Positions 13,774 through 26,834 of a stretch of 64,000 nt of DNA are shown here, piece by piece. The translations under genes and the position numbers were made by a program. Within the stretch, counting starts at the first letter, position 1. Every line of letters starts with the position of its first letter. Origin of the DNA: a virus; IMG/VR virus record IMGVR_UViG_3300037117_000082, positions 1 through 64,000 of that record; one strand, written 5' to 3'. Under the pieces are notes generated by a model. The model had not been told where the DNA came from. It saw only the letters and a list, made by a program, of their open reading frames with translations, and searched no databases.

Positions 13774-16700
13774 CTACCCGTCATGCGTGGCCCGGAGGTG
13801 TTCCCATTCCTCGTGCGTGCGCTCGCTGGCAGCCGCTACCTCTGGCGTGACGTGACGGTGCGGTCCCCATTCCAGGTTCCCGTGCCGCCAGCGCTCCACC
13901 GCCGCGACCGCCATCGCGATGGCCTCGCTTTCCGGGACGCCGTGGTCGCGCTCGATCGCCGCCGCGATGTTTTGCACGTATGCGGGCAACTGCTGACGTT
14001 CCGGCACCTTCTTGCTCGGCGTGTGCCACAGTCCCTCATGCCCGAGCGGGTGATGCACGGTGGACAGGTACGGGGTGGCGGCCGACTTGCCGACATCGCC
14101 GAAGGGGAAGTGCTTCACGTCCTCGCCGCGATGCACGCTCAGGTGAGTGAAAGTCACCGGCATGTGCGGCAGGGGGTCCGGCAGCGGGTCGCCTTCTTCG
14201 AGGTACGCGATAGTGCAGTGCGGCTTGTAGCCGTGCTCGCGTGCCTTCGCGTCCGGTGACTGGAGTTCAGCCAGCGCCTCATGCAGCGACTCGGCACCGG
14301 GCAGGTTCACGCCAGCCCAGACCGGCACCCCGTCATCACCGGCAGGGAACGAGCCGATGCCGCCGATGGTCCCGGACAGCGGCTGCGTGGCCGCCGCTAC
14401 CCTGCGCGCCATGACGCACGCGAGGCTGAATGCGTCATCATCCACGTCCGGGCCAAGGTAAACCACGGTCACATGGTGATCAGTGATACCGCCCGGCAGG
14501 GGCTCGATCAGCCCTTCCGGCAGGTCCAGGGAGATCATGCCCGACCGCTTGCTGAGGCTGTAGCCGCGCGCCTCTTTCGGTGCGTCCTGGCCCCGCAGGT
14601 CATACGGCGCGAGGCCGTGCACCGAGCCGTCGCCGAGGTTCGCCGCCGTGAAGTTCTTCGTGGAGCGCCCGTCGTCGCCCGCGCCCGGCTTCTGGTCGCT
14701 GAATTGCGAGCTGTGAGTTTCCTCGGCCAGCTTCGCGCCTGCTGCAGTGACCTTGCCCACGTAGGCGACGACGGGACGATCTAGTTCCCTGAACGCGAGG
14801 GCACGGTGATGCCCGTCGATCACGATCAGGTGCGTTCCGGGCTTCGTGTCCGGCCGGTCGATGAGGACGGCCGGCTTGACCGGCCGGCCTGCCGCCTGCC
14901 GGCGCTCGATCTTGGCCTTGAAGCGATCGACCTTGGCGTCCTCGTGGCCGGCCTGCCACTTGTCCGGGGTGTACTCGATCGCGCTGAGCGGGACCTCTTG
15001 CGGGCCGGTCCAGGTAGCGTCCTTTACCCAGGTCAGCGCCGAGGCGGGGTAGTCCTCCAGCAGTTGCGCGTAGACCTGCTCAGCGACAGGGAGAGACGTG
15101 TCCGGGTGCTTCCAGGGTTTGTCGGCCTTGGTAAGGTGCACTGCGGCCGGGGTTCCGTAGGTTGCGGGTTCGAGTCCCGCCTCGCCATCCATGGTTGGCG
15201 GGTAGCTCAATGGGCCCCCATGGACGGGTCCTTGGTAGAGCAGCGGAGCCCCGGCCGCCTTCGCAGTCCCCGGCGCGGGAGGCGCAACACCCTGCTTCGG
15301 CGGATCGCTCGGAGCCAGCCAGCAACGACATCCTGGATGCTGGCACGGCTGGGCGACCCCGCCGGGGAACAGGCTCCCCAGCGGAACCGGGCCGGCGTCC
15401 TGGTTGGCCATGCAGCGGGCGCAGACCCTTGAGTCGTTACGGGTGTGCCAGCGGACGTAACTCACGCCTAGCTCGGTGTAGACCCCGAAGGCCCCGTCCG
15501 CGATGGCCTTCTCGATCTCCGTCAGGGCGATCAGCCCGGCGCGGTTCTCAGCGTTAAGGAACGCATCCAGCAGCGCCAGCAGCGCCCCAACGGTGACCGC
15601 GCCGCCGAGGAGCAGCTTCATGAGCGCGACGGTGAACCCGGCGAGCCCGGTGCCGGCCATCTGCCTTACCGCGGCCTGCTGAGCGATCTGGGACGTGTCC
15701 GCCTGCTGCGCCGCCGCGATCCCCTGCCGCTGCCGTGCGGAGGCTCCTGCTGCCTGCATGGCCGCTGCCCGGCCCAGTTCCCGGCCCTCCGCGTGCAAGG
15801 GGGCCAGGATGAGCGCGAGCCGTTGCCGGATCAGGTCCGCGATCATCGACGCGAGAACCGCCGCCGTGACGGCGAGGGTTCCGGCGAGGAACGCCGCGAA
15901 CAGCTTTCCCGCCTCGGTCATCACCGAGGAGAACGCGGCCCCGATCTGCTGCTCGTACTTGGCCGCTAGCTGGAGGTCGTGCTCCCAGGCGAGCCACGCC
16001 TGCCGCTGCTGGCCGCCGCTAGCGGCCCGCGATTTTGGGAGCGCCCGCCTCGCCTCGGTGAGCACCTCGGCGATGCCTATGCCCTTCGTCACGTCCTCGG
16101 TGATCATGGCCATGACGTGACCGGGGATATGGACCGGCTGCCAGGTAGCGGGGTCGCGGCCCTTCCTGACGTGCCTGCCCAGCGCGTCCAGCTCGCTCAG
16201 CGCGGCCTTGGAGCTGCCGCTGCCGAGGAACGGTGGCGGCCCGCAGTTCGGGCAGCCCTGGACGTGCAGGGCCTGATCCCGGAACACTTCCTCGCACCAG
16301 GGAGATCCCTTTGCCTCGGCCTCGGGCACCCGGTAGCCATCGCAGCGGTAGCACTCGTGGCCCGTCTCGTGCTCGCCGGCGCCGCCGCAGCAGGCACAGG
16401 GCGCGAGGGCAGCCAGGGCTTCCTTGCTCAGCGACGCGGCGTCCGGCGCGGTCAGGATCTCCGCGAGGACATGATCCGCCGGCCTTGGGGCGGCAGGCTC
16501 CGCGATGGCCTTGAGCATCATCCGCGACCCGATCGCCGTCACCGCGTGGGCGGCGTAGCTGCGGGGCAGGCTGCATTTCACGCACGCGGACTGGTCACCG
16601 GGGACGTACGGCTCGTAACGGTGCAGCCCGTCCGGGTCGCTCGCTGCCGCCTTCGAGGACGAGCCCGAGACCGCCGCCGCTGCCTCCGCCGCTCCCGCGA

Positions 16701-25982: not shown

Positions 25983-26372
25983 TTGAGCGAGCTGGCATGC
26001 CGCTGGGACCTGGACTGGCGGCATGCACCGCGAGGGCTGCCCGAGGGCCCGGTTGAGATGTGGCTCGCGGTCGCCAGCGATGAAGGCACCGTGATGGGCG
26101 CCGGGCCCATGACGCAAGCCCCGGCGTGGTGCTGGAAGGACGGCAGGCCTGCCATCGGCTACGGCCCTGTCCGCATCCGCATCCAGCGGCGGGGACGTTA
26201 CGCGCGGGGCCTGATCGTCGCGGTATCGCGGGAATCCGGGGCATGGGCGCCCGTCTGCCCGATCGACCTGTCCGGCGGGAAACACCGGGAACTCCGGGCC
26301 GGGGATGAAATGACAATGGCCGATGGCGTGCTCGCCCTCTACCCGGAGTTGCCGGCCGCCGTGAGACCATGA
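25983..26372 (+). CDS. Unknown 129-residue protein
   Basis: Starts with TTG at 25983, three bases after the previous stop. The sequence (CRWDLDWRHAPRGLPEGPVEMWLAVASDEG...) has a beta-rich middle with VRIRIQRRGRYARGLIVAVS and an acidic end. No catalytic motif or membrane segment is seen. It is probably co-transcribed with the preceding gene. Confidence 0.55.
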   Translation: MSELACRWDLDWRHAPRGLPEGPVEMWLAVASDEGTVMGAGPMTQAPAWCWKDGRPAIGYGPVRIRIQRRGRYARGLIVAVSRESGAWAPVCPIDLSGGKHRELRAGDEMTMADGVLALYPELPAAVRP

Positions 26373-26379
26373 CCCCGAT

Positions 26380-26447
26380 GGGGCGGCAGTTCAGGAGCGG
26401 GGTCGCTACCCGCCACGGTCTTGCGGGTTCGAATCCCGTCCGCTCCG
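26380..26447 (+). tRNA. Degenerate tRNA-like sequence (short D region)
   Basis: It ends with a canonical T arm GCGGG/TTCGAAT/CCCGT (26423-26439), an acceptor strand CCGCTCC and discriminator G. GGGGCGG at 26380-26386 pairs with that acceptor strand (one G-U). Between them GCGGG/GTCGCTA/CCCGC could be an anticodon arm (loop T33, CGC, but U37 instead of a purine). The D region is only about ten bases and lacks the usual GG, and CTA replaces CCA. It may be a decayed tRNA, a phage tRNA with a reduced D arm, or the 3' end of a tRNA kept as an attachment site. It sits in the gap between convergent genes. Confidence 0.4.
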
Positions 26448-26834
26448 CTAGCCGGCGTGAGTCCCGCAGGCTCCGCAGTAGCCCTTGATCACTCGCGCCT
26501 TCGGGTGGGGGCACGACTCGTCCCGCCGCGCTGGCGACTGCTCAGCCGCACGTCGCGTCTCTGCCCGCACCAGCGCCTTGCGTGAGGGCGCCGGAACTGG
26601 GGGCAGCGGAGGCACATCACCAGCCGGCCGGAGCCTGCCAGTCCTCACGGGCGACGCGCGCTTGCCGGTCACCGGAACGGCGCCGGCGGTTACCAGCGCC
26701 TCGCGGAGAGCCGCCTCCAGGAACGCCGACCGGGACACGTCCCCGCGAACCTCGTCAAGCTGAGCCGCCAGCGACTCGCTCACCTTGGCACCCACCGTGA
26801 CCCTGCGGCCCTCATCCAGGCGCTTCCGCCCCAT
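26448..26834 (-). CDS. Ribbon-helix-helix (CopG-like) regulator
   Basis: 128 residues from ATG 26834. The N terminus MGRKRLDEGRRVTVGAKVSE..LAAQLDEVRGDVSRSAFLEAALREAL fits a ribbon-helix-helix with its strand at RVTVGAKV. A long Pro/Ala linker leads to a C-terminal CPHPKARVIKGYCGACG zinc site. Two copies of GTTTACCGGAA lie just upstream, one overlapping the likely -10 box, so self-repression is probable. Its stop abuts the tRNA-like sequence. Confidence 0.65.
   Translation of the reverse strand: MGRKRLDEGRRVTVGAKVSESLAAQLDEVRGDVSRSAFLEAALREALVTAGAVPVTGKRASPVRTGRLRPAGDVPPLPPVPAPSRKALVRAETRRAAEQSPARRDESCPHPKARVIKGYCGACGTHAG

Follow-up and report, generated by a model that had tools for sequence, protein, structure and literature searches.

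In the 64,000-nucleotide stretch of viral DNA analysed here (the window), a long minus-strand gene encodes a phage portal fusion protein, and a tRNA-like element (15143-15258, plus strand) lies antisense inside it, in the linker between its MuF-like and ParB-like parts (Table 1). The fusion also contains, at residues 1314-1418, a 2'-5' RNA ligase/phosphoesterase-like domain (Pfam PF13563, E 3e-10). The initial annotation had described, opposite the portal gene, a 3' tRNA half followed by the matching 5' half, and both this permuted tRNA-like order and the antisense placement are borne out, by the fold and by the 1546-aa open reading frame respectively. Reading the sequence and folding it reproduced exactly every stem, loop, canonical residue and coordinate that had been listed. 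In the minimum free energy (MFE) structure of the plus strand (-72.3 kcal/mol, z -5.2) a 16-bp stem encloses the T arm, the acceptor stem, which ends in a loop of 8 nt, and the D arm, which contains a further hairpin; none of 200 shuffled sequences was equally stable, and the minus strand folds more weakly (-59.7 kcal/mol, z -3.8). The two acceptor strands pair at all seven positions, and the canonical pairs and residues of the tRNA core are all intact, as judged from the sequence, the fold and the covariance model R1 introduced below. Four wobble pairs (one in the acceptor stem, two in the 16-bp stem and one in the D-loop hairpin) are all G-U on the plus strand, as previously noted, and A-C on the minus strand, a weak indication that the RNA is read from the plus strand. 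An outer repeat, ACTGCG/CGCAGT, brackets the element, and its pairing excludes part of the 16-bp stem. Seven nucleotides (15218-15224) of the extra hairpin's loop, CCAUGGAC, are complementary to the acceptor loop, UCCAUGGU, so that a kissing contact of the two loops is possible. In a post hoc test the chance of such a loop-loop match was 0.0002-0.0009; CCATGG is self-complementary, however, so that duplication alone would yield six of the seven matching positions.

Table 1. Features of the portal-fusion gene and of the element antisense to it (positions in the window)
Feature	Position	Strand	Basis or detail
Portal + MuF-like + ParB-like + 2'-5' RNA ligase-like fusion gene, 1546 aa	13774-18414	-	
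Tract of 795 bp identical to phage L002	14887-15681	.	Sequence comparison
YrlA-like insert of about 132-134 bp, in frame with the portal gene	15136-15269	+	Rfam match, linker comparison
Outer stem strand ACTGCG	15140-15145	+	Sequence; outer stem in the cmscan alignment
Basal stem, 16 uninterrupted bp, 5' strand	15143-15158	+	Fold
Anticodon-stem 3' strand (inner 5 nt of the basal-stem 5' strand)	15154-15158	+	
Variable loop AGGTT	15159-15163	+	
T arm GCGGG-TTCGAGT-CCCGC	15164-15180	+	Stem 15164-15168/15176-15180; fold, model R1
Acceptor stem, 3' strand CTCGCCA	15181-15187	+	Fold, R1
Acceptor-closing loop TCCATGGT	15188-15195	+	U73, CCA, TGGT; fold
Acceptor stem, 5' strand TGGCGGG	15196-15202	+	Fold, R1
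TA between acceptor stem and D arm		+	
D arm GCTC-(29-nt loop)-GAGC	15205-15241	+	Stem 15205-15208/15238-15241; fold, R1
Extra D-loop hairpin, 6 bp, GGGCCC-CCATGGAC-GGGTCC	15212-15231	+	Fold
Basal stem, 16 bp, 3' strand	15243-15258	+	Fold
Outer stem strand CGCAGT	15264-15269	+	Sequence; outer stem in the cmscan alignment

Family assignment of the element

YrlA is the bacterial Y RNA of the Ro60/Rsr particles of Salmonella and Deinococcus. In a permissive Rfam scan the YrlA model (RF02553) aligned with 15140-15270 of the plus strand from end to end (model positions 1-114 of 114; 48.2 bits, E 5e-10), whereas the Rfam tRNA model reached 16 bits in the same region. The score of the element, like that of other actinobacterial YrlA copies, falls under the Rfam gathering score for YrlA (69 bits): among 14 loci with similar copies only L302 attains it, and other copies, from Streptomyces and actinobacteria and from phages, score 35-68 bits, most of them below 69. 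The parts of the element also follow the YrlA layout, with a T arm, a loop-closed acceptor stem and a D arm, in this order, on a basal stem (here of 16 bp) formed by pairing of the 5' and 3' ends (PMC8394870). For a model independent of Rfam and of the element we used an alignment (A1) of 65 other copies, the element left out, as the basis of the covariance model R1. In A1, 94% of the cells are paired and double changes occur in 344 cells, and the covariation (0.645, against 0.157 after shuffling) was reached by none of 500 shuffles. R1 matches the element with 58.3 bits (E 4.7e-22 in the window), and in the whole 115-kb record from which the window is taken the element is its sole strong full-length match, the next being weak and overlapping a tRNA-Met gene. 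R1 also responds to tandem tRNA genes, so that its E-value alone is no proof of YrlA; tandem tRNA genes were rejected as the source of the signal, because ARAGORN finds no flanking tRNAs and because the ends of the element are joined by the 16-bp helix. The same Rfam scanning produced a group II intron match of 16.6 bits, which we attribute to chance.

The initial annotation had taken the element for a circularly permuted tRNA whose anticodon stem is extended to a helix of the two ends. The helix is exact, but it is no decoding anticodon arm: in the sequence and in the fold the halves join directly in the 16-bp helix, with no anticodon and no loop to carry one. Permuted tRNA genes are known in red and green algae and in archaea. 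The element resembles these in having the 3' half before the 5' half and the CCA region in the intervening loop; it differs from them in lacking an anticodon and a splice motif, and cannot decode. An independent permuted phage tRNA gene, processed to a functional tRNA, would account for the permuted order, the CCA at positions 74-76 and the canonical core, and ARAGORN does accept the re-joined halves once an invented anticodon loop is supplied, a result that speaks to tRNA likeness only. The missing anticodon nevertheless excludes a functional permuted tRNA for practical purposes, and with the 48 bits for YrlA against 16 for tRNA, and the YrlA copies carried by portal-related phages, we regard such a gene as extremely improbable. 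ARAGORN reported no tRNA in the window; its intron-tolerant mode gave a match stretched over 1 kb, in which only the T arm and acceptor take part, and this was discarded. Thus, the tempting reading of a permuted tRNA in a phage gives way to that of a YrlA-type tRNA mimic. The element is very probably the tRNA-like module of a YrlA-type Y RNA, derived from YrlA, and we infer that it descends from the YrlA of related phages; it represents an unusual form of a bacterial RNA already known, and not a new kind of tRNA.

Nor does the view that such an RNA is without precedent in bacterial phages stand, since permuted T-arm/D-arm elements of the YrlA kind proved common across the phage and bacterial contigs from which copies were collected, and rsr-bearing portal relatives carry YrlA. 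Y RNAs in phages are moreover on record (PMC12282133, citing Chen et al., 2014; PMC7765460), and YrlA, known from phages and bacteria, is likewise without an anticodon (PMC8394870, PMC12282133). The large stem formed by the two ends of YrlA binds Rsr (Ro60); the tRNA-like domain (the D, T and acceptor arms) is bound by PNPase and is a substrate of DusA and TruB, and the RNA carries dihydrouridine and pseudouridine (PMC8394870). In 14 of 88 distinct YrlA-like copies whose acceptor loop has at least 4 nt, N-CCA stands exactly at tRNA positions 73-76; at other offsets it occurs in 0-2. A CCA at its tRNA position seems to be retained in some YrlA RNAs, the element among them, and some low-scoring YrlA-like copies may be tRNA remnants.

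YrlA and rsr in phages with a related portal gene

A profile search of IMG/VR returned 80 relatives of the portal gene. Eight of the 22 long records of this portal family (G002, G003, G004, G006, G007, G018, G019 and G022) encode a TROVE/Rsr protein that scores above cut-off, and G005 has a TROVE match below it; R1 matches are present in all eight above-cut-off records. In seven of them (G002-G004, G006, G007, G018 and G019) the YrlA copies share the strand of rsr and precede it by about 0.2-1.4 kb, and in G022 the TROVE gene is far from the YrlA-like matches listed. The best tRNA-like modules in the rsr loci score 41-70 bits with R1, the Rsr of one relative is a 579-aa open reading frame, and ARAGORN finds tRNA genes in the loci of most rsr-bearing records (loci L440-L448 and L460-L464). 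The phages with these sets have their portal family in common with the phage of the element. Their YrlA copies, however, number up to several, with tRNA genes around most sets, whereas the element is a single copy, away from rsr or tRNA genes, within the portal gene. No TROVE protein (PF05731) was found in the 115-kb record of the window, which may be a fragment and whose host could supply Rsr, or in the 113-kb record of the sister phage L002, and each of the two records has one full-length element. Since neither phage has TROVE and the Rsr/YrlA pair is common in the family, the element is an orphan.

Among 110 distinct, well-paired copies, two features set the element apart: its basal stem has 16 uninterrupted bp, the next longest having 8, and its D loop has 29 nt, with a hairpin, as against 7-10 nt in all the others. 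The L002 record was the only one brought up by a strict search for long D loops in viral contigs, and among the listed matches of a looser scan no other copy has both the long basal stem and the D-loop hairpin. A UACUUC-like motif occurs in the 5' strand of the basal stem in all 16 copies examined from portal relatives with rsr or a borderline match, and GUGCGAA- or GGUCUCG-type motifs in many of these 16; a pattern search, with patterns chosen by eye, found none of the three in the element. The Ro/Rsr-binding site in the basal stem of YrlA is a GNCGAAN0-1G/YUUGNC-type motif, and a pattern test for it gave no match on either strand of the element. Moreover, the positions AUGC of the YrlA model are deleted in the Rfam alignment of the element. 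Because the strict Ro-site motif occurs in just 22 of 109 copies of a wider set (a looser form occurs above the level of shuffles), its absence is suggestive and no proof of lost binding. Judged by these patterns, the basal hairpin appears to have been remodelled, with the Ro60/Rsr-associated motifs gone. Unlike YrlA, then, the element has a basal stem devoid of the Ro-side internal loop and of UACUUC/GCGAAG-type motifs, and it sits antisense in a structural gene of a phage record without rsr.

Insertion, probable exchange and possible function

The MuF/ParB linker is 144 nt long in the window, 15 nt in L003 and, by the same count, 0 nt in L365 and L366, and its excess over L003 agrees with the bounds of the RNA to within a few bases. 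Other relatives fill this site differently, L004 and L005 with 117 nt of unrelated sequence and distant relatives with a far longer linker that, by eye, includes Nudix-like sequence. Long open reading frames antisense to YrlA copies elsewhere (L284 and L271, the two inspected) were read as spurious frames. The Rickettsia RPE are palindromic elements found in frame within protein genes. The element is like them in being a short palindromic in-frame insert at a tolerant site of a coding gene, and unlike them in being a single copy, without a repeat family, and in having a tRNA-like core. Of the 80 portal relatives only L002 has an R1 match in the portal gene, and its copy is identical, so that the element is known as two copies only, mutually identical. 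Divergence from L002 is about 8% on the flanks of the identical tract and 25-30% further out; identity over 795 bp inside such divergence points to a recent recombination or transfer tract. No further full-length copy was found in the same record, and BLAST against phages and plasmids gave short matches only, mostly to the T arms of ordinary tRNAs. A search of 395 genomes sampled from the same class as G023, a Streptomyces, which was run without a positive control, found no full-length copies.

An antisense regulator, a plus-strand RNA that would pair with the portal mRNA in cis and whose tRNA-like fold would stabilise it or offer a site for RNase P-type processing, would fit the exactly antisense position and the stable fold with its tRNA-like acceptor end. 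No promoter pattern was seen, however, and the absence of the element from all but one of the 80 relatives indicates that the portal gene can do without it, which makes an antisense effect on that gene less likely; we consider this reading very unlikely. The main alternative, and a serious one, is that the element is a relic: a YrlA copy that arrived by illegitimate recombination and merely codes for a disordered portal linker, its perfect stem having arisen by quasi-palindrome correction at the DNA level (template switching) and not by selection on an RNA. The in-frame insertion at a linker whose length varies widely (0, 15, 117 or 144 nt, or large domains in relatives), the lack of a visible promoter, the absence of rsr from the phage and the single copy all fit a relic, and the recent recombination tract accounts for the identity with L002. 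In contrast, the tRNA-core helices and tertiary positions are all perfect, the 7-nt loop-loop match (found post hoc) is unexpected in a decaying copy, and the remodelled stem implies change after the Ro-bound state was left, with the core kept intact. We hold the relic to be doubtful, although a real possibility.

The explanation we prefer starts from what was computed (the fold, the family resemblance, the motifs missing by pattern, the insertion and the identical tract), and adds a putative expression, protein partners, kissing contact and function. A YrlA tRNA-like effector module, on a remodelled, uninterrupted basal hairpin without Ro60/Rsr-associated motifs, would have been inserted, in frame and antisense, at a linker of the portal-fusion gene that tolerates insertions, and would recently have been exchanged between two phages by recombination. 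If the plus strand is transcribed, its most likely action would be that of a Ro-independent tRNA mimic, engaging proteins that bind the tRNA elbow or acceptor stem, such as TruB/Dus-type modifying enzymes, PNPase or other nucleases; the fold would perhaps be tightened by a kissing contact of the acceptor loop with the loop of the D-arm hairpin. Counted against this explanation are the neighbouring predicted genes, which an open-reading-frame heuristic places on the minus strand, and the lack of a consensus promoter or terminator nearby (by the sigma-70 pattern, the only one used, there is no promoter in 14600-15700), together with the two identical copies only, the absent Ro-stem motifs and the Rfam score below gathering. 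Taken as a whole, an orphan YrlA derivative, inserted in frame and antisense, recently shared and, if transcribed, acting as a Ro-independent tRNA mimic, seems to us somewhat probable; that the element functions today as an RNA we consider slightly less likely than not. A bolder version, in which a Y RNA has been converted by the phage into a free, Ro-independent, anticodon-less tRNA decoy, locked by kissing loops, expressed antisense to the portal gene and occupying a host tRNA-handling enzyme or nuclease, we think unlikely.

On the preferred explanation, the element would be an rsr-independent case, in which a YrlA-type module can quit the rsr setting, shed its Ro-side features and settle in a structural gene, and, if the RNA is made, a natural test of the role of the tRNA-like module without Ro60. 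As a model for the function of Y RNAs, the Rsr and YrlA sets, which are recurrent among phages with this portal family, are underused.

Elsewhere in the window, 26360-26450 (plus strand) is tRNA-like, with an intact T arm, a plausible anticodon arm and no normal D arm; ARAGORN is silent on it, and its make-up suggests a degenerate tRNA or a tRNA-derived site. Outside the window, at about 111.5 kb of the same record (G000), locus L362 has at its positions 1469-1543 an ordinary tRNA-Met (CAT), the sole tRNA reported by ARAGORN in the examined stretches of the record. About 0.6 kb upstream of it, at 3-857 of the locus, lies an IS605 OrfB/TnpB-like gene (Pfam OrfB_IS605, Cas12f1-like TNB).
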